64,000 nucleotides of DNA from Chrysoperla carnea. Lineage: Eukaryota; Arthropoda; Insecta; Neuroptera; Chrysopidae. The notes under the pieces were generated by a model, which was not told the origin of the DNA, made no database searches, and saw only the letters and a program-made list of their open reading frames with translations. Shown here piece after piece: positions 17,976 to 42,511 of the stretch (the stretch's first letter is position 1; each line of letters starts with the position of its first letter). The stretch lies in the NCBI RefSeq assembly GCF_905475395.1, contig NC_058337.1, forward strand, positions 139,197,172 through 139,261,171, given 5' to 3'. The position numbers were made by a program, and so were the translations under genes.

Positions 17976-17989
17976 AACTGGGCCAAAAC

Positions 17990-21560: not shown

Positions 21561-21562
21561 GA

Positions 21563-22139: not shown

Positions 22140-22298
22140 TGCTCATCATTACTATGGGATTGTTGAGATATGACGAGTAAAAGGTTATAATGAGATAAAA
22201 AATAAATAAGTAAGGAATGTCAGAGCATCAAATAACAATGGTCAGTTTAGATGAATTAGTTAGCCCCGATCATCAATATCGTAAATTTAAAAGTTTAT

Positions 22299-23896: not shown

Positions 23897-24336
23897 ATAA
23901 ACAAGCTAAAATTGGTTGTAAAGGAGGTAGTAAGTTTTGGTATGGTTATAAAAAACATGTTAGCATTGATATCCAATCAGGGATGAATAATAAGGTTGCA
24001 GTTACCCCTGCAAATGTTACTGATAGCAAAGGTTTTAAACATGTTATACCACGCTCCGGTGCTACATATGTAGATAAAGCATATTGTACAAAGCCTGCCG
24101 AAGATGTAGCAACTAGGAAAGGAGTGCATCTTTGTGCTGTAAAGAAAAATAACATGAAAGATAAGAATTTTGATCTTGATAAATATTATACGAAAATTAG
24201 AGCACCTTTTGAAAGAGTATTCTCACAAGATAATAAACGTATCAGATATATTGGTATTGCACAAAATCAATTCTCTGAATTTATGAATGCTATATGTTTT
24301 AATTTGAAACGATTAACCGTTTTAACGGCTAGCTAA

Positions 24337-24497
24337 TATAATATTCGATAACTCCTGTAGATAGGAACAAAATCTACTCTACTTTCTACTAATTTTTTAT
24401 ATACTGACCAAAATTTATCTTAAATTTAAACTCAATTGCTTCTAACAAACATCTTTCTTATAATTTTCTACTTAATTTCTTATCACTCAACGCTCCC
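24337..24497. other. 3' end of IS5-like element
   Basis: Non-coding end of the IS5-like element, with a run of short AT-rich phrases. The same 160-bp stretch recurs at 50,366-50,508. The terminal piece reads GTTGAG inward. Confidence 0.6.
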
Positions 24498-24810
24498 AAT
24501 ATATAATTGGTTGTAACCAGAGTAAGCATCAGCATGCAAAGTGCCTGTAAAATTCTTAAGATGCTCTAAGGACCTTACTCCTTTCCGATCAGGACTATAA
24601 AAATAACACACTGCAATAGGAGCTTTGTTACCATAACTTCTACCATCTAATACATAGGTCCATATTCTACCAATTTTTGTTTTGCCAATGCCAGGAGCTA
24701 ATACTTTTACTGGTGTATCATCACCATGTATTTGCTGACCAGAAAATATAAATTGTTGAATTGCTACTGCTATTGGCTCTAGTAGCTTAGCACCTTGACC
24801 AGCCCAACTT
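24498..24810 (-). pseudogene. IS66 transposase TnpC, middle part
   Basis: Minus-strand residues SWAGQGAKLLEPI, HGDDTPVKVLAPG (catalytic D), RIWTYVLDGRSYG, CYFYSPDRKG and LHADAYSGYNQLY (second catalytic D). The sequence begins exactly at the Pol-3 target duplication CAACTT (24,805-24,810) and continues the frame of the N-terminal piece that ends at 40,944. The lower edge is the IS5-like insertion. Confidence 0.9.
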
Positions 24811-25319
24811 AGTAGAAGAGTCACAGGGATTTCAGCGCAGTTGGATGGTACACTTTTCAAAAAAGGGCAAACCTAGGTGAATGTTGGAAACCTCGGTTGA
24901 ATGCGAAGTTGGAGGGGATAGATGACGTCATTGACCAATAGTAAATCAAGATGGCGTTGGGAGGTGTGGTGGGGCGTGGCTGACAGAGCGTTAGTGTGTT
25001 TCTTGGCGGAAGTGGGGCTTAAAGTGGTGGGCGTGGTTTTGGAAGTGGGGGTTAAAGGGGCGGGAATTGGACGTTAGATGAGATAATCGAGCCCACTTTC
25101 AACCCCAAAGTATGGTACACTTTTCCAAAAAGGGCAAACCTCGGTTGAATGCGAAGTTGGAGGGGGGACGTCATTGGCTTTGACCAATAGTAGCGCTGTA
25201 AAAATCAAGATGGCGTCGGGAGGTGTGGTGGGGGGAAGGAATGGCTGCCTAAGCATTGATGACGTCATTGGCTTTGACCAATAGTGGCGGAGAGTGAACG
25301 GGGGGCGGGACGTTGACAT
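24811..25319. repeat. Pol-3 left terminal inverted repeat, GC-rich part
   Basis: It starts AGTAGAAGAGTCA and mirrors 40,335-40,943. It holds TTGACCAATAG (CCAAT box), TGACGTCA (25,260-25,267 and others), AAGATGGCG phrases and a GGGGGGCGGGACG GC box next to the AT-rich part. There is no gene in it. Confidence 0.9.
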
Positions 25320-26539
25320 TAGTCAGCAATTTTCAAGAATATGTTAATTTGACCTTGAAAAATATTGTAATTTGACACTTTAAATATACATGATAAAATT
25401 CAAGACACGTGACCGGATGTTAATATTTTTTTTTTTTTTTTTAATTAGCAATGTAATATGACACTTGAAATTTACATAATAAAAATACATGTTCAAACTT
25501 GTTTGAATGGACTTTGATCTTAAAATAATTTTACACGTGTCAGCAATTTTCAAGAATATGTTAATTTGACCTTGAAAAATATGATATCATCATCTTGTTA
25601 CAAGTTCAAACTTGTTTGAAATAATTTTACATGTGTCAAAACACGTGACCGGATGTTAATATTTTTTTTTTTATTGAATTAGCAATGTAATATGACACTT
25701 GAAATTTACATAATAAAAATACATGTTCAAACTTGTTTGAATGGACTTTGATCTTAAAATAATTTTACACGTGTCAGCAATTTTCAAGAATATGTTAATT
25801 TGACCTTGAAAAATATGATATCATCATCTTGTTACAAGTTCAAACTTGTTTGAAATAATTTTACATGTGTCAAAACACGTGACCGGATGTTAATATTTTT
25901 TTTTTTATTGAATTAGCAATGTAATATGACACTTGAAATTTACATAATAAAAATACATGTTCAAACTTGTTTGAATGGACTTTGATCTTAAAATAATTTT
26001 ACACGTGTCAGCAATTTTCAAGAATATGTTAATTTGACCTTGAAAAATATGATATCAACATCCTGTTGCAAGTTCAAATTTGTTTGAATAAAAATACATG
26101 TTCAAACTTGTTGGAACTTGTTTAAACTTGTCTGAATTCCAAGAAAAAATAATTAGTTTGAATTACGATTATAAAAATATCAAATTACAACTTTTTTAGT
26201 GGTGGGGATAATGCTATAAAAAGTGATGTACGTAGCTGTTGAAGTATCTCTTTTGAAATTCACCTTTGCTTCAGTTAGTTTTTTCCGCATATATTTTTTA
26301 CGTTATTTTTATTATTATTATTATTATTATTACTTTTTTTTTTTTTTTTTTTTTGGTATATTTATTATTCTAAACTTTGTCTATATATTTTATACAAAAA
26401 AAATATATTACTCAGTTGTAAGTTAACTTTAGTGTTGAACGTTCGGTAACGTATATTTTGCTTAGTATTTGAAAATATAACGGTAAGTGTAAAATTTTTT
26501 AAATATTATTGTGAAACTTAAATATAATTTTTTTGAAAG
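25320..26539. repeat. Pol-3 left subterminal repeats and leader
   Basis: Up to about 26,160 four to five AT-rich modules repeat, each with CCGGATGTTAATATT, ACACGTGT, GATATCATCATC and CAAACTTGTTTGAA. Then comes the promoter block, an ATT microsatellite (26,305-26,335), a T run and the leader of PolB with a GGTAAGT splice-donor-like site near 26,480. Confidence 0.8.
26208..26280 (+). promoter_or_regulatory. putative Pol-3 left promoter
   Basis: TATAAAAAG at 26,215-26,223, then the conserved GCTGTTGAAGTATCTC and CTTTGCTTCAGTTAG. It is kept almost unchanged at 5,915, 54,510 and 59,195. It probably drives the PolB transcription unit. Confidence 0.5.
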
Positions 26540-29500
26540 ATGGACACCTACGAACGAAATGTTATGCAGACGCTAAACGTGGTACCTCAAGGTGGTAGCA
26601 CTGATATGATGAAGAAAGTGGAGAGAGCGTTGAGGCTCATCAAGACGGTGGAGGAAGCTGAGCGATGGATGATACTTAATAAGCAGAACATCCGCTTATT
26701 CAAAAAGATGCTGATGTTAAAGAAAGAAAATCCTCTGCGTCTTGAAGCTAATATTGGACTTTGTAAATCATACCAGCGGCAACTTCACCGACTGCGATTA
26801 GATTTAGTTAAGCAAGGTGGTGGTGTCACCAAAAAACAAAATCGACATCTAATCTGGGAGACAATTGAAACCCACCACCAGGGCAGGGTGAAGACTGGTA
26901 TGATTACCAATTTGGATTATAAAGATCCAAATATATTTTTCAACCGGGCATTTCCAATGTTTAGAAGACACGTTCGGCGTGAGCTAGTGAATCATCCCCT
27001 CAAGGTAAGTAAAATTTAAGATTTATAATTTAAATAGTCTAATGAGATTTTATTTCAGGTGTATATTATGTTCACGGGCAATTTCATTAAGCCCACCACC
27101 AAAGAGGAGGATTTGAAAACTTTTATAACGTCGGCCAAGGAAATGTATCTGACAACGGACATGCAGGAGTGGTACACTGATCATGTCAAAAACTATTTGT
27201 TGAAAAAATTGGAAGAATTCCAGGAACGCGATAGCGGTTGGGCTCTTGACATGATCATAAATATTCGAGTCCACATGAATAAGTACTCTCCGATCACAGC
27301 TGGAACATTTTGTGAACTACCACCAGTCATCAAAAATAAATTGGCTGTGATTAATGTCCAGAATAAAGACCAACATTGCTTTTTATGGTCGATAATGTCA
27401 GCACTTTACCCGGTTGAAAAGGATCCTCAACGTTTAACTAAGTACCCGCACTATAAATATCATTTAAAATATGATGGATTAAAGTTTCCCATGTCTCTAG
27501 ATCAAATTAATAAATTTGAAAAGATGAACCCGCAGCTATCGATTAACGTGTACGGCTACAAAGATACGTTTATACATGGTTTGGAAATTTTCCCTGTACG
27601 CGTTAGTTCGAACACTGCGGGGCAGAAAATTCATCTATTGGCTGTGGAGAATGGGAACAGTCACCACTTTTGCTGGATAAAAAATTTAGCAAAGTTGGCT
27701 CGATCGGGTGTAACAAAATACAAGAATAAAATTTATTTATGTGATCGATGTCTCAACTATTTTGCTACAGAAGGCAAACTCCAACAGCATTCAGTAAATT
27801 GTGGTGAGCAAGAAGCAGTGCGGGTACGAATGCCTGAAACTGATGACGAGCGGTTCGTTGAGTTCAAAGATTTCAACAGCAAGGAACGTGTTGAGTATAT
27901 GGTGTACGCTGACTTTGAGGCACTATTGGTACCACAGGGCCATGAACACATGGAAACGGATCATGAGTCTTATACACAAAATATTCAAAAACATATACCC
28001 TACAGTGTGGGGTATTATGTACATTGTACTCATGATCCTAACCAATCATTCTATAAGGCATACCGTGGTGCTGATTGTGTCAAGTGGTTTGTTCGTGAAC
28101 TGGAACAAGTAGCGTACTCATTAGAGCAAAAAATAAAACACGTTAAACCAATGTGTCCGCTCACCGTCGAACAAGAACTGGATTTTATGTCAGCAGAGAA
28201 GTGTCACATTTGTGGTAAAGATTTCGTATCCAATTCCATACGTGTTCGCGACCATTCACATCGCACAGGTAATGCAATTTATTTATTATTTTTTTAAAAT
28301 TCATCTAATTTTATATTAATCTATTTTAGGTATCTACCGTGGAGCAGCACACCAATTTTGTAATCTGCATTATCAAGATTCAAGGGTGATACCTGTTGTG
28401 ATGCACAACTTAAGTGGATACGATTCGCATTTTATTATTGAAACTCTGCTGACGGAAATCGACGGTCAAGTTGATGTGTTGCCCATCAACAAAGAAAAGT
28501 ACATCAGTTTCACAAAGCACGTCTCGGACATTCAACTAAGATTCATCGATTCCTTCCGATTTCTCGCAGACAAGTTAGAAAATCTGGCCTCATATTTAGA
28601 TAATGATAAAAAATCCATTTTACATAAAGAGGTAAATGATAAAAAAATAACTAATTTTTAATACAGGGTTGTAATTTGTTTTCTATTTTTTTTTATAGGT
28701 CAGTACTGATGAACAATTTCAATTGCTAACGAGAAAAAGTGTATTTCCATATGAATACATGAGTAGCTGGGGACGTCTCCAAGAGACGAAATTACCACCA
28801 AAGGAGGCGTTCTACAGTGTGTTAACAGATGAACACATAACGGATGAGGATTATAACCATGCGATACAGGTATGGAACACATTCAATTTACATACACTAG
28901 GTGATTATTCAGACCTGTATATGAAAACTGATGTGTTACTACTTGCGGATATTTTTGAAAATTTCCGTAACACTTGTATTCATAGCTATAGTCTCGATCC
29001 TAGTCACTATTACACACTTCCTGGCTATACGTGGAGCGCCATGTTGAAATACACCAATATCAAATTGGAATTGTTCACGGATATTGATGACTTGTTGTTT
29101 ATCGAGAAAGGAATCAGAGGCGGTGTAAGTCAATGTTCTAATCGCTATGCTAAGGCGAACAATAAGTACATGGAAGAGGGGTATGATAAAACTCAAGAAG
29201 ATGTCTACCTTATGTATTATGATGTGGTGAACCTATATGGTGCAGCAATGTGTGGATACCTACCAACAGGAAATTTTAAGTGGGTCGACACACCAAACAT
29301 CGAGGATGTTGCAGATGATTCACCAGTCGGGTACATTTTAGAAGTAGACCTTGAAATACCCCAACATCTACATGATAACTTTAGCGATTTACCGCCATGT
29401 CCGGAGACAACGAAACCACCTGGATCAAAACAAAAATATCTTCTGTCAACCCTTTACAATAAGACCAACTATGTCGTGCACTACAGGAATTTAAAACTGT

Positions 29501-30426
29501 ATACACAACTCGGTGTTAAGGTAACAAAATACCACCGTGTGTTACAATTCGATCAATCTGCATGGTTGAAACCATATATTGATTTCAATACCGAGATGCG
29601 CAAGAACGCCTCAAATGAGTTTGAAAAAGCATTATTCAAACTCATGATTAATGCCATCTTCGGTAAAACCATGGAGAATGTGAGGAAACATCGGGTTGTG
29701 TACATACGAAAAAATTGGGATGGAAAACATGGTGTGAAGAAATTAATTGCCAATCCCAATTTTCACAGTATGATGGTGCTCGACAATGACGTCAGTATTG
29801 TTGAAATGAAAAAATCACAGATACGTTTCAACAAACCCATCTACATAGGCTTCACAATTTTAGACATATCGAAAACGTTTGTGTATGACTTCCACTACAA
29901 CTACATGTACCAACGGTACAACCCCACAAATGTCAGGTTATTATACACAGACACCGATAGTCTAATTTATAGCGTGAGAAATACTGACGTCTATGAGGTC
30001 ATGAAACAGGATATTAATCGTTTTGATACGGCTGACTATGCACCCGACAACGTCTATGGTATACCACTACGTAATAAGAAAGTCAAGGGTTTAATGTCCG
30101 ATGAAAATAATGGTGATGTTATGCTAGAATTTGTCGGATTACGTAGCAAAATGTATGCTATTCGGGTGCAAAATAAAAAAGAGACTAAACGATCCAAGGG
30201 TCTCAAGAAGTCAGCTATCCGAAAACTTACTTTTGAGGACTATAAGCGGTGTTTGCTTGAGAACCGTAACTTTTACCGTGTTCAGCAAAGCATCCAATCC
30301 AAGCGACACCGCTTACATACCATCAAACAGCAGAAAGTGGGCTTATCACCATTTGACCAAAAACGATACATTACTCACAATTCATGTGAAACAAAACCAT
30401 GGGGCCACTATAGCATTATTTGTTGA
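26540..30426 (+). CDS. Polinton protein-primed DNA polymerase B
   Basis: Family B polymerase of the protein-primed type that would copy the linear Polinton genome. Four exons (from 26,540, 27,059, 28,330 and 28,699) are separated by GT-AG introns of about 54-68 bp whose phases agree. Exo I is [10 protein letters not shown], Exo [14 protein letters not shown], Exo [18 protein letters not shown]; the palm has [24 protein letters not shown] and [12 protein letters not shown] with the catalytic DTD. A Cys pair (CHICGKDF) precedes Exo II. The first exon is the likely terminal-protein region. It is nearly identical to Pol-5 and appears whole. Confidence 0.92.
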
Positions 30427-30666
30427 GTGTAAGTATTTTATATTTTATGTTTTTAATATTTAGCTTATTTTTGCTGTTGTTTCAGAAATGTGTCCTGCTG
30501 TTGTTGTGATGATCCTCAAAGTGGTTCGGTATTGTGATAGGTGTACAAACAATTGATAGAGTAGTGCGCATGAACAATTGATAGAGTAGTGGTGGGGGTG
30601 TCAAAAAATTGATAGTTAGGTTGAATTATTATAGAAAACAATTTAGTGTTAGTTTAAACATACAAA

Positions 30667-31107
30667 ATGCAAGACTTTGGTAATCATAATAGTGATAACA
30701 ACTGTATTGTTAATATGATTAAAGATAATTGTAGTTTAAGTACTATAAACAATGTGTTTACAAAGTATTTTAAAACATCGGTTAATATGGCAATTAAATG
30801 TGGTCGACCGGAAACTTTAAACTACCTTATTGATAAGGTAGAACAAATGGACTTAGAAGTGAAATTTTCCCCATCGTCAGACGATGAAGACAAACAAATT
30901 TGGAACTGGATTTTAAAAAATATCCACTCTGGACAAAAAGATGGAATTGTAGGACTATCCATTTTTGAACAATCTTACTACAGTGTATTTACATCAGACG
31001 AGTTATCCGACTATGTTCAAGTGAAAGAAATAATTGAAAATTATCTTATGAAGAAAGATAATGATGATGATGATGATGATGATGACAATGGACACTTTTC
31101 AGAATAA
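30667..31107 (+). CDS. small acidic Polinton protein, 146 aa
   Basis: Unknown family with copies after PolB in Pol-2 and Pol-5. The N-terminal half is helical-looking (NVFTKYFKTSVNMAIK, GRPETLNYLIDKVEQM), followed by the acidic SPSSDDEDKQIWNWI stretch, an FEQSYYSVFTSDELSDY segment and a run of eight or more aspartates. The 240 bp between PolB and this gene contain an intron-like GTAAGT to TTTCAG stretch and no other gene. The acidic tail suggests a binding partner for basic proteins or DNA mimicry, but this is inference. Confidence 0.6.
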   Translation: MQDFGNHNSDNNCIVNMIKDNCSLSTINNVFTKYFKTSVNMAIKCGRPETLNYLIDKVEQMDLEVKFSPSSDDEDKQIWNWILKNIHSGQKDGIVGLSIFEQSYYSVFTSDELSDYVQVKEIIENYLMKKDNDDDDDDDDNGHFSE

Positions 31108-31281
31108 TAATTATAATGTATTTTCGATAATTTATAAATATATATTTTTTAAATATTATTACAATACAACTCTGTTTTTATATGTTATAGATAAAATTTT
31201 ACAATAAAAATAATATTTTTACAATGTGATATGTTTTATTTTTTTTTTATAAAACACAAATATGTTCACAAAAACGGTCCA

Positions 31282-32205
31282 CTATAAAAGAAGACTTTTT
31301 TTATCAATATATGAATCGTGTAAAGAGTCGAACCCTAACCACCGGACTTTAACTTTGGATCCATGTTTAGCTAAGACCTTTTCCACTAAATAAATGTTTG
31401 GATCGTGAACTTTTTGTAATTCTTCGGCATAGAAACCACCCTTTATATCTTCGTTGTTGTAGTCCTTCAGTAAATATGTTCTTGGGTTTGTAAGTTTCAC
31501 CTCGCGAATGGTGAATATTTCTGGTGTCCATGATGGATGAAAACCACGAGCAAACGTCGTTCTAAATTTACTTATCCTTACATGATCGCCAACTGTAAAT
31601 TTTTGTTTTGGACCCACCATCTTAATATGATTGTATGAATCTTTTAAAATCCGTTTTTCGTTTCGTGTATTGACTTGTGATGGCTTCATCCTGATTGTCC
31701 GATGGTATGAATTATTGTACTGTTTAATCAATTCCGGTAATACTTTTATCCATTTATAATTACCATACAAACTGAAATGTTTGTACATCATCGATTTCAG
31801 TGTGCGTATAAATCTTTCCACAATACACGCCTTTTTAGTTGAATATACAGAATAATGGTTTATGTTGTACTCTTTCATCAATCTCTTAAATTTTTCATTA
31901 TAAAATTCCGTACCATTATCAGTTTGAAGGTTTTTCGGTGTACGATCTTTTATAATCTGTTCCATGGCATTAGTGACATCCACCGCACTCTTGGACTTTA
32001 GTGGCATAGCCCAGCTATATTTGGAGAAGCAATCGATGACCACCAAAATATACTTAAAGTTGGTATTTTGTCTTGCATACGGGATCATTTCTACCAAATC
32101 AGCTTGAAATAAATCATTGAGTCCCTTAATGATTACACGCCTTCTTGGATAATTACGTCGAGCTGGTTTATGTAGCTCATTCACAACAATTCGTCTTTTA
32201 TCCAT
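31282..32205 (-). CDS. Polinton integrase with chromodomain
   Basis: Retroviral-type DDE integrase, 307 residues. Catalytic residues fit QADLVEM (D), TDNGTEFYN (D) and ACIVERFIRTLKS (E), the usual D-D35E spacing. A C-terminal chromodomain-like part (VEKVLAKHG, VKVRWLGF, SYIDKKSLL) follows a GDHVRISKFR SH3-like linker. It inserts the element with a 6-bp staggered cut, matching the CAACTT duplication seen here. Its start codon overlaps the stop of the fibre-like gene (32,198-32,205). Fragments of the chromodomain are scattered in Pol-1 and Pol-2. Confidence 0.93.
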   Translation of the reverse strand: MDKRRIVVNELHKPARRNYPRRRVIIKGLNDLFQADLVEMIPYARQNTNFKYILVVIDCFSKYSWAMPLKSKSAVDVTNAMEQIIKDRTPKNLQTDNGTEFYNEKFKRLMKEYNINHYSVYSTKKACIVERFIRTLKSMMYKHFSLYGNYKWIKVLPELIKQYNNSYHRTIRMKPSQVNTRNEKRILKDSYNHIKMVGPKQKFTVGDHVRISKFRTTFARGFHPSWTPEIFTIREVKLTNPRTYLLKDYNNEDIKGGFYAEELQKVHDPNIYLVEKVLAKHGSKVKVRWLGFDSLHDSYIDKKSLLL

Positions 32206-32893
32206 CTATTAATTTATATTTTATACCAATGTCAACATATAGTAACATGGAATCGGAGTTTGTATTCATGAAACTTTTAGGAATACCAAACGTTAAATAA
32301 TCGTTTGATTTTAATGTATTAAGTTTATTTTTATCTATAATACTATCGTTTTTGAAGACCTCACAGTATGTTGGTTTAATATCTAAATGATGTATCATCA
32401 CAGAGATTGGGAATCTAAATACATAAACTCTTGTATTATTTTCCAATATATACCATGCAAAATCAGTAGTTGGATCAGGATAAAATTGTGTTGGTTGAGT
32501 ATTACGTATTGATATTCGAAAATAACCATTTAATTTTTTCAGACTCTCGTTAAATATTTCAGTAGTGTTATTGATTTTATCACTAACATGATTGATAAGG
32601 GTGTATAAATCCACAGCATCAGTTGAAAATTCTGGACTTGCTACATTACTTATTTTTTTATTTTTTGCATCAAAGTATGATTCTTTATCATCTAATGACA
32701 AACACTGTCCAAGACTTTCCAAGTTCACAACATCTTGCTTATTTATAGGTTTCCCGACATTCACAATTCGTCTTTGTTTTGCATCGAAGCAATTATTTCC
32801 ACCATTACATCGAAGTATTGATTCATTATGTGATGTATATGAATCTTGATAATTTTTGAGGAGAGAACATCCAAATTTATCTATACCGTTCAT
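32198..32893 (-). CDS. fibre-like protein of Pol-3, 231 aa
   Basis: Two short repeats in the first half, CFDAKQRRIVNVGKPIN and YFDAKNKKISNVASPEF, each followed by a DVVNLESL/DAVDLYTL segment. This I-x-NV-x-x-P...DAVxL pattern is typical of trimeric stalk and tail-fibre proteins of phages and adhesins. The C-terminal half (RISIRNTQPTQFYPDP to YVDIGIKYKLIDG) looks like a beta-rich head. A receptor-binding fibre is therefore plausible, by analogy with the adenovirus fibre. No homology search was possible. It lies in the capsid-side minus-strand block, next to the integrase. Confidence 0.5.
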   Translation of the reverse strand: MNGIDKFGCSLLKNYQDSYTSHNESILRCNGGNNCFDAKQRRIVNVGKPINKQDVVNLESLGQCLSLDDKESYFDAKNKKISNVASPEFSTDAVDLYTLINHVSDKINNTTEIFNESLKKLNGYFRISIRNTQPTQFYPDPTTDFAWYILENNTRVYVFRFPISVMIHHLDIKPTYCEVFKNDSIIDKNKLNTLKSNDYLTFGIPKSFMNTNSDSMLLYVDIGIKYKLIDG

Positions 32894-32959
32894 ACTGAGT
32901 TCTCAATAGGTTATGATGTAATTTTAATAATTACATATAATAAATATAAAATCTTAACA

Positions 32960-33539
32960 GGTCTAATAAGAAACAGCTCGGTTTAATACTGCTCTGTATC
33001 TAAACAGGTCTGTTTAATACTGGTCTGTATCTGTTTAATACTGGTTTTGAGCTGTTTAATACTGATCTGTATCTGTTTAATACTGGTTTTGACCTGTTTA
33101 ATACTGATCTGTATCTGTTTAATACCGGTTTTGACCTGTTTAATACTGGTTTTGTCCTGTTTAATACTGGTCTGTATCTGTTTAATACTGGTTTTGACCT
33201 GTTTAATACTGGTTTTGACCTGTTTAATACTGGTCTGTATCTGTTTAATACTGGTTTTGACCTGTTTAATACTGGTCTGTATCTGTTTAATACTGGTTTT
33301 GACCTGTTTAATACTGCTCTGTATCTGTTTAATACTGGTTTTAACCTGTTTAAAACTGGTCTGTATCTGTTTAATACTGGTTTTGACCTGTTTAATACTG
33401 GCCTGTATCTGTTTAATACTGGTTTTAACCTGTTTAATACTGGTTTTGACCTGTTTAATACTGATCTGTTTAGAAACAGGTCTGTTTAATACTGGTTTGA
33501 CCTGTTTAATACTGGTCTGTTTAGAAACCAATCTGGTTT
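32960..33539. repeat. 21-bp minisatellite inside Pol-3
   Basis: About 26 units of TTTAATACTGGTTTTGACCTG and the CTGTATCTG form, same family as in the palindrome, located between the fibre-like gene and the DUF8207-like gene. Since Pol-3 is otherwise whole, this is probably the native home of the array. Confidence 0.95.
32983..33531 (-). CDS. possible heptad-repeat protein encoded by the minisatellite
   Basis: An ATG-started frame of 182 codons reads almost only IKQVKTS/IKQIQTS heptads. With Ile at a and Val/Ile at d this is an ideal coiled-coil pattern. It lies on the same strand as, and directly upstream of, the fibre-like gene. The frame could be real, for example a shaft-like protein, or a by-product of a 21-bp repeat, which keeps other frames open as well. 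I favour a by-product but cannot decide. Confidence 0.25.
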   Translation of the reverse strand: MVSKQTSIKQVKPVLNRPVSKQISIKQVKTSIKQVKTSIKQIQASIKQVKTSIKQIQTSFKQVKTSIKQIQSSIKQVKTSIKQIQTSIKQVKTSIKQIQTSIKQVKTSIKQVKTSIKQIQTSIKQDKTSIKQVKTGIKQIQISIKQVKTSIKQIQISIKQLKTSIKQIQTSIKQTCLDTEQY

Positions 33540-34514
33540 TCAGTATATTATATTTTCTTCCCTTAACTCTTGTATCAAACTATTGATTTCATTTTGATGG
33601 CTGAAATTTCCCGCGTCACGTGATGCGCATAACAGCCGTAATCTGTCGCAAAGTTCGTCGATTGTATTCCAGTACACATAATCTATGGGATTATTAGTTA
33701 CTCGTGATAATGTTAGACCGCTACCAGAAGCAGGAGCCGATGGGTATAGATGTTTTTTAATGATTTTTTTATACTTTAAACCTCTAGTTCCTTGAATTTG
33801 ACCTCGAGAGTCATAATTACGTCTATTAGCGTTTGATGATGTTACAATTTCTAAATAGTTACGCATGTCTTGCTCTGAATAATGTTTTGGTATCTGTTTT
33901 ACTAAAAGCTCATATAAACCTGATGTCCCGTCGTACCATTTTTCGTTGACTTGTATATTGTTATGCTTAATGTGAACAACTGAATTACCTACATATAATC
34001 TATCAGCAGCATTATCATAACGTAATCCGTAAATATTATCGATAAGCTTATCATCTTTATTCGATAATATAAAATAAATGTATTTACCGGCCATATCTCC
34101 ATAAGTCTTTGTAAAATGCTGAAGTGCATGCTGATTATTCTCTGGTGATTTTATAATCTCCCTAAATACAACATCTGGAGTGTGTAATGCATCATCCTCA
34201 TAGGTGTCTGATAGATTTTGTTTTGTGACTACTGGAGTATCTTCAAATAATTTTCGAGCCTTCATTGGCGTATAATTTAATAGTTCATCTTTATTGTCTT
34301 CTAAGGTATCATCTTCCATCTTGCGTTTTATATTAATTCGAGTAAAATCGTTTTTGTTCTCTTGTTTTTCTACTAGCTTATTCAGCGGATCAGTGATGGG
34401 CTTAAATGTTTTTTCTAATGAAATGGTCGCTCTTTGTTCATCAGCTTTGAGTGCGTTATACTTTTTCTGTATAATATCGCTCAACTTAGCTAGCTGTTTC
34501 GTTGTCTGAAGCAT
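33540..34514 (-). CDS. Polinton DUF8207-like protein, 324 aa
   Basis: A charged N-terminal half (KRKMEDDTLEDNK, KARKLFEDTP) is followed by a conserved domain with GDMAGKYIYF, YGLRYD, YVGNSVVHI, GTSGLYELLVKQIPK, NYDSRGQIQGTRGLKYK, DYVYWNTIDELCDRLRLL and EINSLIQELREENII. This layout is very common in insect Polintons and, as I remember, is catalogued as DUF8207. The function is not known; a virion or core role is possible from its place beside the capsid genes. It appears whole. Confidence 0.75.
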   Translation of the reverse strand: MLQTTKQLAKLSDIIQKKYNALKADEQRATISLEKTFKPITDPLNKLVEKQENKNDFTRINIKRKMEDDTLEDNKDELLNYTPMKARKLFEDTPVVTKQNLSDTYEDDALHTPDVVFREIIKSPENNQHALQHFTKTYGDMAGKYIYFILSNKDDKLIDNIYGLRYDNAADRLYVGNSVVHIKHNNIQVNEKWYDGTSGLYELLVKQIPKHYSEQDMRNYLEIVTSSNANRRNYDSRGQIQGTRGLKYKKIIKKHLYPSAPASGSGLTLSRVTNNPIDYVYWNTIDELCDRLRLLCASRDAGNFSHQNEINSLIQELREENIIY

Positions 34515-34785
34515 GTTATCAAAAGAAAGCTCACAAGTTAAATGACCTATACAGTTGATAAACAGCGCTTAATAACCTAACAAGTATCATCAATCAACCT
34601 ATATAATATGCTCTTTATAAGGAATAATAAATCAACTTGTACTACAGATAAGATAAAAAAAAATTTTATTTAAAAAAAATTACAATTTTAGATTAAAACA
34701 AAATACAAAATATGAATAAAGACAATTATTTTATTTTTTAATATTATTTATTGTTAAAACTTTTTTAATCATTAACACTAATTTA
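34515..34785. other. AT-rich spacer in Pol-3
   Basis: No gene is seen. It contains a TATATAATATG stretch and A/T runs, probably the promoter of the 33,540-34,514 gene and the 3' end of the gene above. Confidence 0.4.
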
Positions 34786-35274
34786 TCAACAACAAGCACC
34801 TCCGTATAAAGATCTATTAAAAAAATAATGTAATAAATACATAATAATATTTGTAGTACAATGTTTATGTTGATAGATGCATAGAGCTTTTGATACACTG
34901 TCATTCTTATGGAGTGGTTTTCCACCATCCAAATTTTCAATGTGGACTGCCCTTGTTGAATTTCGAATTAATTTTTTAATCCAAATTTTCTTTTCTTCAC
35001 CTTTGCAGTATATTACATTATGATTAGCAATATGTGTTAAAATGGTTGATAACTCGCAATAATCGGTGGCTCCTTGATTCCAGTATAAGCCATGGTAATT
35101 ATTTGAGAGCCAAATTGTTTGTTTCTTATCTGAATCACTTAATGTGTTAAATGGAAATGGTGGTTTGAATACATAATGTCCGAAATGGTTCCCATTTGTA
35201 TCCACAAAACTAAGTTCTTTAACGATGAATTCATTGTTTACTTTGAAACCCTGTACGTCCACTATGTACGCCAT
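34786..35274 (-). CDS. Polinton protein, 162 aa, VDVQGFK family
   Basis: It starts AYIVDVQGFKVNNEFIVKELS and has LSNNYHGLYWNQG, VIYCKGEEKKIWIKKLI and a Cys-rich end (GGACC). It is a diverged homologue of the 166-residue proteins in the palindrome. The start codon lies one base after the major capsid stop, so both are likely made from one transcript. The pattern vaguely recalls a nuclease fold, but I cannot name catalytic residues with confidence. Confidence 0.6.
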   Translation of the reverse strand: MAYIVDVQGFKVNNEFIVKELSFVDTNGNHFGHYVFKPPFPFNTLSDSDKKQTIWLSNNYHGLYWNQGATDYCELSTILTHIANHNVIYCKGEEKKIWIKKLIRNSTRAVHIENLDGGKPLHKNDSVSKALCIYQHKHCTTNIIMYLLHYFFNRSLYGGACC

Positions 35275-35275
35275 T

Positions 35276-36478
35276 TTAAACTACTCTATTCACAATATTC
35301 GTAAGTGGATTGTATTTAAATAATTGATCATGGAACACTATACAATACGCACGCGTTTTAGCTGGGAAATTAACACTAGCTTCAAACTCAACGCGCAAGT
35401 CCACTGTTGTAGATTTAAGTGACTCTGGGTGCTTCGAACAGTCAATGACAAATAGAGGTGATTTATTTATAAACGTTTCTTTATCTAGCAATGGTTCTGT
35501 TATAGAGCGTCTATAGTACGATTTTTGAAAATTGCAATACATTTCATACAGTAACGCTGTTTGATTATTTGTGTAATTTAGATTCAAATTCACATATGGG
35601 TAGGCTTCACCATTTAAATAGACTTTCAAATTTGTTATGTTACAATGGTCAAACTGACTGGAATCTTTTAAAATGTTGCGGTCACGATTTGTTTGGAAAC
35701 AGATAACAGCGTAGTTAGGACATTCCACACTAGTTTTAACACTCCATACATGTCTATCAGTTAATGGTAGTTCTGGTATAAGTAGACATTCCATTGATCG
35801 AAACCATAACCTCAAATCATCATTTTGATTGACTAAGTTGTATAATTCGACTCGCATTTTATCAGACACTTTAACGTATGGAACACACCATTCTAATTTG
35901 TTGATTTTAATTTTAGGTTTGCTTGTTGCGACAGTTGAGGTAAAACAATTAATATCATCATTTGCACGAACAATAACGATTTCTTGTTTCATGTTTACGA
36001 GAATTTTAGGATAATCTTCAAAAAAACCCATATACATTTTCAACGGAATACGAACATTGAAGTAACCAGCAGCATTCTTTTTAAAATTTTCACCAAAGCC
36101 AGCATTCTCTAAAGCTTTACTTTGATTTTCGTTTAGGGATAGATAGTTTTTTATAGTGCTAACGATGCCTACGTTATTAATCACGTCAATTACCTTACCA
36201 CCAATTTCATAACGAATTTCATGAAACATAAATGATATAGCATTCGATATGAAGCTGGCTGCATTTGTATCATCATCATCATCATCAGTCACTTGACCTT
36301 CGATATTTAAAACACTTTCACTTGGTAATGTGTACAAGTCTTGTGATTGAATGCAAATTCTACTCTCATCGCTTGATTCAAATTTCGATGAATTATAAGC
36401 TTGGTGGTTGTGATACTCTAGTCCTGTAATAACATTATCGTACTCAGGTACATTGGTCACATCTAGTATTTCTGCCAT
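35276..36478 (-). CDS. Polinton major capsid protein
   Basis: 400 residues with the opening AEILDVTNVPEYDNVITG and blocks such as ISFMFHEIRYEIGGKVID, NVGIVSTIKNYLSLN, KIKINKLEWCVPYVKVSD and SVKTSVECPNYAVICFQT. This matches the widespread F54H12.2-like family of animal Polintons, which I take to be the double jelly-roll capsid protein. It would form the hexon-like shell. It is flanked by penton-like, protease and ATPase genes, as in other virus-like Polintons. It appears whole. A TAC/GAA run lies just upstream of its start. Confidence 0.8.
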   Translation of the reverse strand: MAEILDVTNVPEYDNVITGLEYHNHQAYNSSKFESSDESRICIQSQDLYTLPSESVLNIEGQVTDDDDDDTNAASFISNAISFMFHEIRYEIGGKVIDVINNVGIVSTIKNYLSLNENQSKALENAGFGENFKKNAAGYFNVRIPLKMYMGFFEDYPKILVNMKQEIVIVRANDDINCFTSTVATSKPKIKINKLEWCVPYVKVSDKMRVELYNLVNQNDDLRLWFRSMECLLIPELPLTDRHVWSVKTSVECPNYAVICFQTNRDRNILKDSSQFDHCNITNLKVYLNGEAYPYVNLNLNYTNNQTALLYEMYCNFQKSYYRRSITEPLLDKETFINKSPLFVIDCSKHPESLKSTTVDLRVEFEASVNFPAKTRAYCIVFHDQLFKYNPLTNIVNRVV

Positions 36479-36553
36479 TCTTCTTCTTCTTCTTAATACA
36501 ATTGAATTTTATTCGTATAACTGATTTCTTTATTTTAAACCAGCAACTAAATT

Positions 36554-36733
36554 TTACCCAACAATTGGCCGTTTTAGTTTTAAGCCAATTGATTGAAGAA
36601 ATTTTCTATTTTCGTATGATAACTGTTTGTGATTATTTATTCTATTGTTGCTCGATTGAGGTTGTTTTATGAGACGGTTTGTAGAAACACTGCCTCCAGC
36701 ATAACGTGTAGGATGATTAAATACAAAACCCAT
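36554..36733 (-). CDS. conserved small Polinton protein, 59 aa
   Basis: A short basic protein starting MGFVFNHPTRYAGGS and ending KFLQSIGLKLKRPIVG. The ENRKFLQSIGLKLK end is a phrase I recall from many insect Polintons. Its ATG overlaps the stop of the penton-like gene by one base (TAATG), which suggests coupled translation or a shared transcript. Function unknown; a small capsid-associated protein is a reasonable guess. Confidence 0.6.
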   Translation of the reverse strand: MGFVFNHPTRYAGGSVSTNRLIKQPQSSNNRINNHKQLSYENRKFLQSIGLKLKRPIVG

Positions 36734-37410
36734 TATATCTTTTTCAAGTGTAATCCAATTGTAATGTTTTCACCTCGAAAGTTAACTAATTTACCAGTTT
36801 GGTCCACTAACGTGAGCGTAATGTTGCTTATAGTTTGACAGTTGATTGGTAAATAAATAACATTCATAGAATGTATCACAATTTTATAACCTGGTGGTAG
36901 ATTTGGTGAAAAATGAAACAATGTGTGACTGATTTCATTGTTATGATACGATCCATTTGTAATATTACATTGAACATAAATTGTTTCTACAGGTAAAATA
37001 TTAACTGTATTGTCACTTTCATGTCTTTTATTTGCATCTAGTTTTCGTTTATTAAATCCCAACATGCGACAAACAGAATCTGATGGTTCACAGTTTATTA
37101 TCACGGTACACTTTATTTCACATTTTAATGTATTTGTATTAGCATTTATTTGTAGTGTCACCTCATCGCCTACAGCTTCTTTTAAATAACGTTCAATATC
37201 TTCAACTTCATAAGATCCTGGTGGTATTTCTATAACTTTATCATCGTAATAAAACATGTTATTGTGGCTGCGTATATTAGGTATGGAATTGTACCCTTGT
37301 AAATCTACTAGACCCATTTCATAATTTTCATTTTTATCTAATTCAATTGGTGGAGAATAGTCTGTTGTTAAAAAAGAGCTATTCCCTGTAAATGTAAGCA
37401 TGTATGACAT
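36733..37410 (-). CDS. penton-like minor capsid protein of Pol-3
   Basis: 225 residues. The start MSYMLTFTGNSS, then YSPPIELDKNENYEMGLV, LQGYNSIPNI, IPPGSYEVEDIERYL, RHESDNTVNILPVETIYV, FSPNLPPGYKIVI and the end NFRGENITIGLHLKK. This family is very common in animal Polintons and corresponds to the single jelly-roll minor capsid (penton) protein. It appears whole. It lies between the 59-residue gene and the protease. Confidence 0.7.
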   Translation of the reverse strand: MSYMLTFTGNSSFLTTDYSPPIELDKNENYEMGLVDLQGYNSIPNIRSHNNMFYYDDKVIEIPPGSYEVEDIERYLKEAVGDEVTLQINANTNTLKCEIKCTVIINCEPSDSVCRMLGFNKRKLDANKRHESDNTVNILPVETIYVQCNITNGSYHNNEISHTLFHFSPNLPPGYKIVIHSMNVIYLPINCQTISNITLTLVDQTGKLVNFRGENITIGLHLKKI

Positions 37411-37447
37411 CTTGATTTTGAATGAAGTGAATACAAGATTTGCTGGT

Positions 37448-37806
37448 TTATTTATTTAATAAAAATTGTATACATAGATGTCCACAAATCGGAGTATTAA
37501 ACTGTTGTTGTCTATCAAAATTATATTGAATGTCACATCCGTTAAAATATTTAATGACTTCCACTGGCGGTCTCAAATTTCCAAAACTATCATAATAGAT
37601 GACACTTCGATTGCACTTTTTATATGCCGTCCAGTGTGTACCACTATTTTTGGATACATCATGGTTGATAATTCCTGTTTCATATTTATATGGTCTTTTG
37701 GGTAGGGTGTCACGCATAAAAACACCACGAAAATACGGAATTTTAAATTGTTTAGCATACGCACGTAGCTCCGTATCGTAAAGTGCTCTACGTGGTAGCG
37801 TTTCAA
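37448..37806 (-). CDS. adenain-like cysteine protease of Pol-3
   Basis: Ulp1/adenain family processing protease. The His is in NSGTHWTAYKK, an acidic residue in VIYYDSFGNLRPP, the oxyanion Gln in DRQQQFNTP and the nucleophile Cys in CGHLCIQFLLN. In adenoviruses the homologue matures core and capsid proteins. The region is compact, adjacent to the PLA2-like gene, and is the one place in Pol-3 where the element may not be entirely whole. Confidence 0.85.
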
Positions 37807-38592
37807 TTAGTTTTTTGCTAAATATAACCCCATGCCTTTGTTGTACGGTCTTAAATACAAGCCTTTACCCATTGCTATAGCTTCCATTGTTTTGTTGTGT
37901 CTTTGACTCTCATTAAGTTGATCACGAGCACTTTTATAATTTGTAACGGCTTTAGCAATACCCGACGCTCCACCAGCCAAAGCACCTAAAGCAGAGAGTC
38001 CTGCGAATATTGGAATTAATGGAAGTACACCACCAGACTTTGGAACTGGTATTACACGTGTGGGTGCTTTAATACGTTGACCTCGCACGGCTGCTTTTGC
38101 TATTTTTACAGCTGCTTTTAAGTCCGTTGGTTGTGATTTTTTCAATGCATTTCGTGCCTTTCGCACTGATGCTGTAAAGTTTATAGTTTTCTTTGTCTTT
38201 TTCGTCTTTTTCTTTTTTAATCCCATACCAAGTGAAGTTTTTGTCTTCATGGCGCCTGTAACGAATAAAGCGGATGCTTTTTCACCAATTGTTGAATCAG
38301 ATGCTTTGGCACGTTTCCAAGCGGCTTCAGCTAATTGTTTATCTGCTAGATGACGCTCCTTTAAGTCTTTACTTTTTGAATATGCTATATCATGTACCAT
38401 ACAAGCCTGATCCAATGCGTTTTTTGGTTTATCACCACGCGCTAATCGTTCAGCCAGCTTAGTTCCAGGTCCACAATATTGATAAGTTGGTATGTGTAAC
38501 TCAAACGGTAATTTATTTATAAGTGTGTTAACAATACCTCTTCCTTTGTGTTGTTGCTTCTGATGTGACATACTACTAAATGATTTAAACAA
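37807..38592 (-). CDS. PLA2-domain and basic core protein of Pol-3
   Basis: 261 residues. The first third has a parvovirus-VP1-like phospholipase A2 domain: YCGPGTKLAERL (calcium loop) and DQACMVHDIAYSKSKD (catalytic HD pair). A lysine-rich stretch with KKKKTKKTKK follows, then a hydrophobic Gly/Ala segment (LIPIFAGLSALGALAGGAS) and a YLRPYNKGMGLYL end. In viruses such domains break endosomal membranes; the basic and hydrophobic parts recall adenovirus core and membrane-lytic proteins. Location would be inside the particle. It appears whole. Confidence 0.8.
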   Translation of the reverse strand: MFKSFSSMSHQKQQHKGRGIVNTLINKLPFELHIPTYQYCGPGTKLAERLARGDKPKNALDQACMVHDIAYSKSKDLKERHLADKQLAEAAWKRAKASDSTIGEKASALFVTGAMKTKTSLGMGLKKKKTKKTKKTINFTASVRKARNALKKSQPTDLKAAVKIAKAAVRGQRIKAPTRVIPVPKSGGVLPLIPIFAGLSALGALAGGASGIAKAVTNYKSARDQLNESQRHNKTMEAIAMGKGLYLRPYNKGMGLYLAKN

Positions 38593-38623
38593 TTAAGTTC
38601 ACATATATTTAAATGTTTATAAA

Positions 38624-39346
38624 ATGGGTTGTATTGAAATTTTAGTCTTAGTTACATTAAAAATGCGTTTTCATAAACAACAACCCGCTCTGAGTGTTGA
38701 AAATTTAATACCAGAAAATACAGACACACAAACATATCATGGTCCTCTATTTTCAGATTCACTACGAACAATAATATGTGGCCCTAGTGGTTGTGGTAAA
38801 ACCAATGTTATGTTGAATTTAATTTATGATGAAAACGGTTTACGCTTTGAAAACATTTATGTGTACAGTAAATCTCTTTACCAACCGAAATATCAATTAC
38901 TAGAAGAGACTTTAAAATTAGTGGAAGGGGTTGGATATTTTCCATTTAGTGATACTAGTGAAATTCTTAGTCCGAATGAAGCTCGAGAAAAAAGTCTTTT
39001 CATTTTTGATGATGTGAGCTGTCATTCACAACAGAGAATTAGAGAATACTTTAGTATGGGCCGTCATCGAAAAATTGATTGTTTCTATCTATGTCAGAGC
39101 TACGCACGTGTTCCAAAGCATAACATAAGGGACAATGTTAATTGCTTGGTGTTATTCAAAACGGACGAAATGAATCTAAAACACATATTCTACGATCATG
39201 TTGGCTCTGATATGAATTTTCAAAAATTTCATGATTTATGTCGACATTGTTGGAGTTCACCAAATGGATTTGTTGTAATAATGAAAAATTTCTCTATGAA
39301 TGCAGGTCGTTATAGGAATGGATTTGATGAATTTATTGAACTGTAG
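38624..39346 (+). CDS. Polinton DNA-packaging ATPase
   Basis: FtsK/HerA-type (A32-like) ATPase, 240 residues. Walker A is GPSGCGKTNVM, Walker B is SLFIFDDVS, and a DKxxCQSYARVPK-like sensor stretch (FYLCQSYARVPKHNIRDN) follows. It would pump the genome into the capsid. It is alone on the plus strand at this end, divergent from the PLA2-like gene with about 30 bp between them. Fragments of the same gene border the minisatellites in Pol-2. It appears whole. 39,347-39,480 is an AT-rich 3' flank. Confidence 0.93.
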   Translation: MGCIEILVLVTLKMRFHKQQPALSVENLIPENTDTQTYHGPLFSDSLRTIICGPSGCGKTNVMLNLIYDENGLRFENIYVYSKSLYQPKYQLLEETLKLVEGVGYFPFSDTSEILSPNEAREKSLFIFDDVSCHSQQRIREYFSMGRHRKIDCFYLCQSYARVPKHNIRDNVNCLVLFKTDEMNLKHIFYDHVGSDMNFQKFHDLCRHCWSSPNGFVVIMKNFSMNAGRYRNGFDEFIEL

Positions 39347-39479
39347 TGTCACCAATACTTTGTGTGTTTTTTCAGATTCATAATAATAATTTTTTTCTGT
39401 AAATTTTTTTTAAAATGTAAATTTTAATCATTAATAAAAAAAAAAAATATTTATAAGATTTTTATTAAATAAAACCTTT

Positions 39480-40334
39480 ATTCTAATCTCATAACACGTG
39501 TAAAATTATTTTAAGATCTAATGCGATTCAAACAAGTTTAAACATGTTCAAACAAGTTTGAACATGTATTTTTATTCAAACAAGTTTGAACTTGTAACAG
39601 GATGATGATATCATATTTTTCAAGGTCAAATCTATTTCAACATATTTTTGAGAATAGCTGACACGTGTAAAATTATTTTAAGATCAAAGTCCATTCAAAC
39701 AAGTTTGAACATGTATTTTTATTATGTAAATTTCAAGTGTCATATTACATTGCTTAATCATAAAAAAATATTAATATCCGGTCACGTGTTTTGACACATG
39801 TAAAATTATTTCAAACAAGTTTGAACTTGTTACAAGATGATGATATCATATTTTTCAAGGTCAAACATATTCTTGAAAATTGCTGACACGTGTAAAATTA
39901 TTTTAAGATCAAAGTCCATTCAAACAAGTTTGAACATGTATTTTTATTATGTAAATTTCAAGTGTCATATTACATTGCTTAATCATAAAAAAAAATATTA
40001 ACATCCGGTCACGTGTTTTGACACATGTAAAATTATTTCAAACAAGTTTGAACTTGTAACAAGATGATGATATCATATTTTTCAAGGTCAAATTAACATA
40101 TTCTTGAAAATTGCTGACACGTGTAAAATTATTTTAAGATCAAAGTCCATTCAAACAAGTTTGAACATGTATTTTTATTATGTAAATTTCAAGTGTCATA
40201 TTACATCGCTGACTCAATAAAAAAAAAATATTAACATCCGGTCACGTATCTTGAATTTTATCATGTATATTTAAAGTGTCAAATTACAATATTTTTCAAG
40301 GTCAAATTAACATATTCTTGAAAATTGCTGACTA
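39480..40334. repeat. Pol-3 right subterminal repeats
   Basis: Mirror of 25,320-26,160: AT-rich modules with ACACGTGT, CCGGTCACGTG, GATGATATCATA and CAAACAAGTTTGAA. No gene is present. Confidence 0.85.
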
Positions 40335-40943
40335 ATGTCAACGTCCCGCCCCCCGTTCACTCCCCGTCAAGCACCACTATTGGTCAAAGCCAATGACGTC
40401 ACCTGGTAATTTCCCGTTTATGCTTAGGCAGCCATTCCTCCCCACCAATTCAACCACACCTCCCGACGCCATCTTGATTTTTACAGTGCTACTATTGGTC
40501 AAAGCCAATGACGTCATCAATGCTTAGGCAGCCATTATTCCCCAACACCACACCTCCCGACGCCATCTTGATTTACTATTGGTCAATGCCGAGGTTTCCA
40601 ACATTCACCTAGGTTTGCCCTTTTTGGAAAAGTGTACCATACTTTGGGGTTGAAAGTGGGCTCGATTATCTCATCTAACGTCCAATTCCCGCCCCCCTTT
40701 AACCCCCACTTCCAAAACCACGCCCACCACTTTAAGCCCCACTTCCGCCAAGAAACACACTAACGCTCTGTCAGCCACGCCCCACCACACCTCCCAACGC
40801 CATCTTGATTTACTATTGGTCAATGACGTCATCTATCCCCTCCAACTTCGCATTCAACCGAGGTTTCCAACATTCACCTAGGTTTGCCCTTTTTTGAAAA
40901 GTGTACCATCCAACTGCGCTGAAATCCCTGTGACTCTTCTACT
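40335..40943. repeat. Pol-3 right terminal inverted repeat, GC-rich part
   Basis: Mirror of 24,811-25,319 but somewhat longer, because the CCAAT/TGACGTCA/CGCCATCTTGATT block occurs an extra time. It ends TGACTCTTCTACT, directly followed by the CAACTT duplication. Confidence 0.9.
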
Positions 40944-41644
40944 CAACTTGCCATAGTGGTTCTAGAAAGCTCGATACCTTCTCTTTGATAAATTTGTGAC
41001 TGACGATATAGGGGTAAATGATTGCAATATTTCTGAATTAATATATGTGCTAGTAATCCAGCACCCGCCTTACCTTTATCAATAGTTTTTGATGGACGAT
41101 AAGCTTGTACTATTAGTTCACAATTAGTACAAACACATCGTGGTCTTATATGCCTTATAACCTTAAATGATGACGGAACATATTCTAATGTTTCTGAAAT
41201 ATCATCACTTATTTTACGAAATTTTGTTCCGCCACAAGAAGTACATTGATCATCAACTTCTAATAATATATCTTCTCTTGGTTAATGCTCTAGTAACTTT
41301 TGACGTTTTGGTTGTTGGTTACTACCATGATTATCTAAAGTAACTTGATCATGATTCGATGCAATATGATCGATCTTACTTCTAAAACATGAAATAAGCT
41401 CATTTTCCTCTATTCTTAGCTCAATATTCTGTATTTGTCGCTCTAACTTTTCTGATGATTGACCATATCGTTTAGATTTTAATAACGCCAGTTGTTCCTT
41501 TAAACTATTATTTTCTTCAGTTAATGACCTATTTTCTGCATTAAGAAATTTATTTTTAATTATCAATGATTCTATATCAAGATTTAATGTTGCAACACTT
41601 TGATGCAACTCTTCTATTTCTGATAGTAAATTTTTATTAATCAT
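40944..41644 (-). pseudogene. IS66 transposase TnpC, N-terminal part
   Basis: The protein starts at 41,644 with a leucine-zipper-like coiled coil (NRSLTEENNSLKEQLALLK, then KRYGQSSEKLERQ, the IS66 signature). After one in-frame TAA at 41,284 it continues with a zinc-finger region (CTSCGG, CVCTNC) and AHILIQKYCNHLPLYRQ, up to the Pol-3 target site. Counting one CAACTT only, the frame runs on into 24,810 (TTMA then SWAGQGAK), so Polinton and IS66 met in a real insertion event. Confidence 0.9.
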
Positions 41645-41700
41645 AAATGATATTCCAATATCTCAAATCAAGTACTAACTTTACAGAAGCCATTTTTTAT

Positions 41701-42120
41701 GTAGTTAAGTGGGATAGGGTTAACACCCTCGCCTTTAGGCGAACACTTTAGTATAATCTATCTAATAGGTTACTAGAGGAAGAGATGAAATATAGGAGAG
41801 GGTCTCATAGCCTGTATGATTTAAAGTATCATATAGTGTTTTGTACAAAGTACAGGTATAGAGTTTTAACTGGGCAAATAGCAAGTAGAGCAAGGGAAGT
41901 AATTCAGGAAATATGTGCAGCTATTTACATAGATATAATTAGTGGCAGCATAAGTCCTAATCATGTTCATATATTAGTATCAGTTCCACCAAGTATCTCA
42001 ATATCTAAGGTGTTACAATATATTAAAGGAAAGAGTAGTCGTAAATTGCTACAGGAATTTGAACTACTTCGTAAGCGATATCCAAGCGTAAACCAAACTA
42101 CCGGCTTTAGACTAATTGAT
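41701..42120 (+). mobile_element. IS200/IS605-type element, copy D, internally deleted
   Basis: Both ends are present, 3' of TTTAT (41,696-41,700) and ending TAATTGAT, but about 160 bp are missing inside. The TnpA frame (41,785-42,126) keeps the HUH motif, here NHVHIL instead of DHVHIL, and loses the tyrosine helix. The right hairpin lost its second half (CGGTAG). It is not active. Confidence 0.9.
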
Positions 42121-42124
42121 AATT

Positions 42125-42448: not shown

Positions 42449-42511
42449 AAAATTTTACATATAGTGGTCCCTTTTTTACGTAATTTAGTGGTCCCTTTTT
42501 ATTTGACAATG

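Follow-up and report, generated by a model that had tools for sequence, protein, structure and literature searches.

A Polinton in an IS66 transposase gene of a Rickettsia-derived island on chromosome 1 of the green lacewing Chrysoperla carnea

The stretch of DNA analysed here, referred to as the window, covers 64,000 nucleotides of the green lacewing Chrysoperla carnea (assembly GCF_905475395.1, NC_058337.1, positions 139,197,172–139,261,171) and contains a Polinton/Maverick element of 16,133 bp (24811–40943), located on chromosome 1 (C1) and bordered on both sides by bacterial DNA. An earlier note, made from the sequence alone, had placed the two ends of this element at 24,811 and 40,943, each followed outwards by CAACTT, inside a bacterial IS66 transposase gene, and these positions proved exact to the base. 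The junctions and their bacterial surroundings consist of the following features (window coordinates):

18692–24804: bacterial DNA left of the Polinton, with IS982, IS701-like, IS200 and IS66 fragments
21563–22120, minus strand: C-terminal part of the IS66 transposase, DDE profile 150–283
24483–24810, minus strand: next part of the IS66 DDE domain, left of the Polinton
24805–24810, plus strand: CAACTT, left-hand copy of the target-site duplication, inside the IS66 gene
24811–25060, plus strand: outer 250 bp of the left terminal inverted repeat, with similarity extending to ~26140
40694–40943, minus strand: outer 250 bp of the right terminal inverted repeat, with similarity extending inward to ~39526
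40944–40949, plus strand: right copy of the target-site duplication, CAACTT
40944–41644, minus strand: N-terminal half of the IS66 transposase, with leucine zipper, zinc finger and the start of the DDE domain, and an in-frame stop
40950–44370: bacterial DNA right of the Polinton, with the IS66 N-terminus, IS200 and a group II intron reverse transcriptase

The left terminus starts at 24811 with AGTAGAAGAGTCA, and the reverse complement of AGTAGAAGAGTCA closes the element at 40943, the terminal inverted repeats beginning with AG. Their outer 250 bp are identical (100%), and over the 1.33 kb that can be aligned they differ by 22 mismatches as well as in length. The element thus has long terminal inverted repeats and a target duplication in the range of 5–6 bp, as expected of Polintons/Mavericks. 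A chance match as the source of the CAACTT pair was rejected, its computed frequency being about 1 in 2,000–4,000 for one given pair of flanks. The statement of the earlier note that Polintons duplicate 6 bp of their target also applies to this genome, where the duplication is perfect in 11 of the 12 end pairs that could be assembled—the exception being the pair L021/L022—with seven partnerless ends (L013, L016, L017, L030, L035, L036 and L037) standing outside the 12 pairs. The insertion of the Polinton into the IS66 gene, with a perfect 6-bp duplication, is confirmed as real.

Concerning the interrupted gene, its frame runs continuously across the insertion site when one CAACTT is counted, just as the earlier note had observed, with positions 2–43 of the Pfam DDE profile matched on the right-hand piece and positions 45–142 on the left-hand one. 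The C-terminal part is separated from the remainder by ~2.4 kb with IS200 and other transposase fragments and, with this part split off and an in-frame stop in the N-terminal half, the copy is already a pseudogene. The IS66 flank occurs in five copies in the genome, all within C1 138.28–139.24 Mb, and the other four (L040–L043) are uninterrupted and carry a single CAACTT. The uninterrupted gene, which the earlier note thought of seeking in Rickettsiales, was thus found in the same bacterial island of the lacewing chromosome, whereas the IS66 DNA had no match in five Rickettsia genomes and one trivial match of 24 bp in one Midichloria genome; the closest named protein, from a Candidatus Tisiphia symbiont, is 71% identical. 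Since the four copies are natural empty sites, they give the order of events, the IS66 element having come first and the Polinton second.

It might be supposed that contigs of a symbiont and of a host Polinton were falsely joined, leaving CAACTT as a duplicate made by the assembly, and C. carnea reportedly carries bellii-group Rickettsia, so that the sample could contain symbiont DNA (available part of PMC7762206). Such an artefact has, in our view, a slim chance of being the explanation. It has to be set against a HiFi assembly with a contig N50 of 67.8 Mb (PMC10116181, in the part available) and stretches—the window, L048 and L052–L062—that contain no N, against a break that coincides exactly with the ends of the Polinton and shows a 6-bp duplication like that of 11 of the 12 end pairs, against the four element-free IS66 copies in the same island and against retrotransposons of the long interspersed nuclear element (LINE) and BEL kinds that also cut bacterial genes. 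The candidate explanation of CAACTT as an assembly duplicate was rejected in view of the four empty copies and the matched duplications elsewhere.

The island to which these copies belong spans 1,135,975 bp (~1.14 Mb), host elements included, inside the 140-Mb chromosome, its edges lying at C1:138.272 and C1:139.408 Mb. Bacterial matches—at least 41 IS200 rows, the five IS66 flanks and at least 89 rows obtained with a 20-kb stretch of Rickettsia as the query—are confined to C1:138.28–139.39 Mb (among the best 40 of 67 candidates for IS200 and the best 40 of 58 for the 20-kb query). At the left edge, a 165-bp host tandem satellite runs into a gene for a RecG-type helicase, presumably recG, at L053:165. 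At the right edge, the gene dnaE stops at L062:4139 and is followed by AT-rich non-bacterial DNA, apparently of host origin, judging from the absence of a bacterial match and the presence of a host gene beyond. At both ends, bacterial DNA is thus joined to non-bacterial chromosomal DNA at the level of the assembly. The six stretches sampled farther right (L056–L061) contain eukaryotic elements or lack a long open reading frame (ORF), and a host ephrin gene is present in L061 at 139.70 Mb, 0.3 Mb past the island. In Rickettsia sp. MEAM1, from Bemisia tabaci, the genes found at the two island ends are not adjacent, the RecG-type gene lying near 1.34 Mb and dnaE near 0.84 Mb; with such gene positions, the island may or may not be a simply opened Rickettsia circle. 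The best bacterial 16S match in the genome (1191 bits) also lies in the island, at C1:139382497–139383821 (L048), and corresponds to a shortened, 1,325-nt gene of the bacterial type. The four weaker matches above the cut-off (316–357 bits; best 5 of 2049 candidates), found on C3 and C6, are probably host rRNA.

As to the source bacterium, the malate dehydrogenase gene (mdh) in the right part of the window is 96% identical to that of MEAM1 in protein and 94.5% in DNA. We take MEAM1 to be a member of the bellii group. Rickettsia of this group has been reported from C. carnea (available part of PMC7762206). In comparison with MEAM1, the substitutions at codon positions 1/2/3 number 8/8/37 in mdh and 13/7/48 in dnaE; being mostly at third positions, they suggest that most of the divergence accrued while the genes worked in bacteria and that the transfer would be comparatively young. 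The genes dnaE and mdh, the biotin carboxylase gene and IS66 are broken; dnaE has lost its 3' end, ~310 bp internally and one further base, and it contains an in-frame stop. The remaining features of the right part of the window are:

45347–47875, plus strand: host non-LTR (long terminal repeat) retrotransposon (LINE) between two bacterial stretches
51465–52508, plus strand: Rickettsia mdh, carrying two indels of one base each close to the start
53269–64000: another Polinton, whose first base lies just within the end of an IS200-like bacterial element, by a few bases, its partner end not paired

Other host elements have entered the bacterial DNA as well. A second Polinton (C1:139091966–139118080) interrupts an IS200 gene of bacterial type; its duplication is CATATT, and its flanks map onto an intact IS200 copy, overlapping there by exactly 6 bp. 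A further one ends in the window at 18691, abutting the final codons of an IS982 gene, with its partner end not paired. A BEL/Pao element (L054:4926 to L055:3834; LTRs 99.6% identical, Pao peptidase E 3.6e-44) splits the Rickettsia biotin carboxylase gene, the ATP-binding profile being matched at 1–143 on one side and at 137–209 on the other, and in L053:4430–5578 a bacterial fragment of IS200 type and the reverse transcriptase of a host LINE are fused in a single ORF. Polintons have been inserted into Polintons, too: the one from 58037 onward, with the duplication TCGACA, interrupts the polymerase gene of the element starting at 53269, and a Polinton with the duplication TCTAAC has a left flank matching Polinton sequence of the window at 98–99%.

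Several structural details were seen besides. The TCTAAC element (Polinton A, from C1:139183820 to window position 5121) is nested in Polinton B, the two occupying window positions 1–18691, and Polinton B contains in its interior a large inverted duplication with its centre at about 8.4 kb. Outside the island, the Polinton ends L036 and L037 lie ~0.37 Mb apart on C1 with flanks identical over the 20 positions shown, which suggests a segmental duplication there.

The earlier note had left two alternatives, namely that the bacterial DNA was already nuclear or that the Polinton integrated into symbiont DNA inside the cell, and it is the former that is strongly supported. Had the Polinton entered the genome of a living Rickettsia inside the cell, with a contig that is then bacterial, this would agree with the bacterial genes on both sides of the Polinton. 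It would not explain, however, why the stretch is part of a lacewing chromosome of 140 Mb, why the DNA at either end of the island is non-bacterial and a host gene follows farther out, why dnaE is broken or why several kinds of host elements are present; with its genes broken and BEL/Pao and LINE copies inserted, a live symbiont could hardly carry such DNA. This alternative is therefore given practically no weight.

The Polinton itself has the following features inside its terminal repeats:

26540–27019, plus strand: ORF of 159 amino acids (aa) without a Pfam match
27059–28297, plus strand: probable DNA polymerase B gene, N-terminal part, with a zinc-finger match below the Pfam cut-off
28723–30426, plus strand: probable DNA polymerase B gene, C-terminal part, used as the marker for Polinton copy counts
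31282–32205, minus strand: retroviral-type (rve) integrase (D36, D96, E130) with a chromodomain-like C-terminus
32198–34514, minus strand: two ORFs of unassigned function (231 and 324 aa) with a block of 21-bp tandem repeats between them
35276–36478, minus strand: double jelly-roll major capsid protein (PF21738, E 1.7e-94)
36733–37410, minus strand: possible minor capsid protein, guessed from its position, without a Pfam match
37807–38592, minus strand: phospholipase A2-like protein (PF08398, E 7e-15)
38624–39346, plus strand: A32-type packaging ATPase (PF04665, E 3e-9)

The integrase matches PF00665 (E 3.5e-15) and also the integrase of prototype foamy virus (PFV), and its DDE catalytic residues D36, D96 and E130 are present. 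The two polymerase pieces are presumably DNA polymerase B on account of motifs recognized by eye, the Pfam and PDB searches with the C-terminal candidate having returned no match. No protease match that would indicate an adenovirus-type cysteine protease was obtained with the 231-, 324- and 162-aa ORFs. For the window as a whole, ARAGORN predicted no tRNA, and the matches to PHROGs comprised just transposase, terminase and proteins of unknown function. Tandem repeats of 21 bp, which lack stops on either strand and in more than a single frame, were seen in Polintons at window positions 6924–7462, 9543–10165 and 33010–33463.

This gene content bears on the possibility that the Rickettsia DNA reached the nucleus as cargo of Polintons, an idea close to a preprint, in its available part, that puts Rickettsia-derived genes of Curculio within Mavericks (PMC13419823). 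In the lacewing, however, the terminal repeats do not enclose the bacterial gene, which was instead the target and bears the duplication; no ORF of the Polinton matched a bacterial family above the Pfam cut-off, the sole bacterium-related match being a weak, below-cut-off one between the 231-aa ORF and the tail-fibre domain of phage T7; and the Polinton end motif is absent from the stretches at both island edges. Transport as cargo is accordingly regarded as very improbable.

Based on the above, it appears that the Polinton entered Rickettsia DNA already resident in the lacewing nucleus, and we put the probability of this at roughly 93%. The following points weigh against it: the continuity of the locus rests on the published assembly; the island sequence read, consisting of the window, ~34 kb in further stretches and short loci, amounts to little over a tenth of the whole; and from the 20-kb Rickettsia neighbourhood only mdh was clearly matched, so that a whole Rickettsia genome is not established for the island. 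The course of events was most probably as follows. A large segment of a bellii-group-like Rickettsia genome, rich in insertion sequences, entered chromosome 1 close to its end in the lacewing germ line and turned into decaying nuclear DNA, into which host mobile elements were afterwards inserted. The Polinton integrase would have joined the element to a 6-bp staggered cut in the IS66 gene, and repair by the host would have left CAACTT on each side. Polintons may accumulate in the island because insertions cost nothing there, and perhaps also because the island is heterochromatin recognized by a chromodomain-like tail of the integrase.

Recent mobile elements crowd in the island. The Polinton polymerase was located in 77 places (the best 77 of 355 candidates), 21 of them in the island, 24 on the presumed X chromosome (C6, judging from its size) and 32 elsewhere, i.e. 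18.5, 0.62 and 0.06 per Mb, respectively, the island making up 0.2% of the genome. Almost all the places on the X chromosome (23 of 24) lie within C6:0.9–12.7 Mb, a third of that chromosome. The BEL protein search yielded 2 of 37 places in the island and 12 on the X chromosome, the LINE protein search 3 of 50 and 15, so that the X chromosome is rich in Polintons, BEL and LINE alike. Rows that were fragments of places already listed had been removed before counting (1 of 78 for Polinton, 7 of 57 for LINE and 3 of 40 for BEL), and all three queries were taken from the island.

Whether the crowding reflects a preference of Polintons in particular depends on what they are compared with. Polintons exceed BEL elements in the island relative to the whole genome (21/77 against 2/37, P = 0.006) and exceed BEL and all the scored LINE together in the ratio of island to X (21:24 against 5:27, P = 0.007), the Polinton matches being 81–100% identical and most of the LINE matches being distant relatives of 32–48% identity. 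When the LINE set is restricted to matches of 80% identity or more (10 of 50; two in the island, two on the X chromosome and six elsewhere) and taken along with BEL, the whole-genome comparison gives P = 0.012. A Polinton-specific preference for the island is thus only suggested.

With regard to its cause, 51 of 54 aligned members of the integrase family match the Pfam Chromo family (E ≤ 0.01), the family profile matches the chromodomains of HP1, Rhino and Polycomb, and the window integrase has modelled strands at 274–301, in the chromodomain-like region. Judging from these similarities, the chromodomain-like tail may steer Polintons to heterochromatin. Such targeting is countered by several results: the window integrase itself remains under the Pfam Chromo threshold; close LINE copies are similarly frequent in the island (2/10); the ratio of island to X for Polintons against BEL and close LINE (21:24 against 4:14) gives P = 0.09; and the copy counts are lower bounds biased to elements closely related to the query, itself an island copy, while nested insertions and local duplication may additionally inflate the number of Polintons. 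Equal credence is therefore given to the island being a neutral sink, in which Polintons persist because their insertion does no harm and the integrase plays no targeting role. The close LINE copies, the richness of the X chromosome in all three kinds of elements and the value of 0.09 all favour such a sink, whereas the excess of Polintons over BEL in the island (P = 0.006) and, relative to X, over BEL and all the scored—mostly distant—LINE (P = 0.007) speak against it.

A broader, speculative reading would see nuclear symbiont DNA silenced as heterochromatin and serving as a landing pad, with chromodomain-bearing Polinton integrases homing in and the inserts becoming growing traps for virus-like elements; the insert with its 16S gene may, moreover, segregate in C. 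carnea populations and explain a part of the PCR-positive "Rickettsia infections". We consider this reading rather unlikely, its probability having been lowered by the control with close LINE copies. The practical side concerns the scoring of Rickettsia by 16S PCR, according to which 64% of C. carnea individuals in natural populations were positive (PMC7762206, in the part available), as a nuclear 16S copy could confound such an assay in green lacewings—commercial biocontrol insects—if the primers fit. The available part of the same survey also gives many negative individuals and Sodalis-only controls without a gltA product, which means that the insert was either not amplified or not fixed, and differences in titre between larvae and adults, which argue for live bacteria and count against confounding (PMC7762206). 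The genome paper does not contain the word Rickettsia in its main text (PMC10116181), and among the papers listed in literature searches, judged on titles and the beginnings of abstracts, there was no account of the C. carnea island.

In its make-up, the window element resembles the Polintons/Mavericks of arthropods, sharing with them the rve integrase, the double jelly-roll capsid, the A32-type ATPase, terminal repeats starting with AG and the 6-bp duplication; we take it to be adintovirus-like. Duplications of 5–6 bp are described for mavirus and Mavericks (PMC8547959, in the part available). No unusual trait was noticed in the element, and it is the target—bacterial DNA in the nucleus—that is unusual. 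The closest parallel is offered by three Curculio weevils, in which Rickettsia-derived nuclear DNA is, according to the available part of a preprint, overwhelmingly found within young Mavericks (PMC13419823, bioRxiv July 2026). The lacewing, however, belongs to a different insect order and has one compact island of ~1.14 Mb, in which the order of events can be read at the level of single bases from duplications and empty sites; the available part of the preprint gives no such base-exact junctions, and the terms target site, inverted repeat, nested and Chrysoperla do not occur in its main text (PMC13419823). In Drosophila ananassae, the Wolbachia nuclear insertions (nuwt) are large and contain many host retrotransposons, a heterochromatic location being proposed for one line (available part of PMC4299567). 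They differ from the lacewing island in involving Wolbachia instead of Rickettsia and retrotransposons instead of Polintons, and the exact chromosomal site of the nuwt could not be located in that study. The f element of Armadillidium vulgare is, like the lacewing island, a megabase-scale alphaproteobacterial insert in an arthropod chromosome, but it is derived from Wolbachia, has most of its genes free of nonsense mutations and is tied to sex determination (available part of PMC5541319). The lacewing locus thus adds, in a second insect order, a base-exact succession of bacterial DNA first and Polinton second, and offers a single well-assembled locus in which to test whether Polintons are attracted by foreign DNA. 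The kind of event is known from these systems; what is new is the host order, the compact Rickettsia island and the base-exact proof of the order in which its parts arrived.

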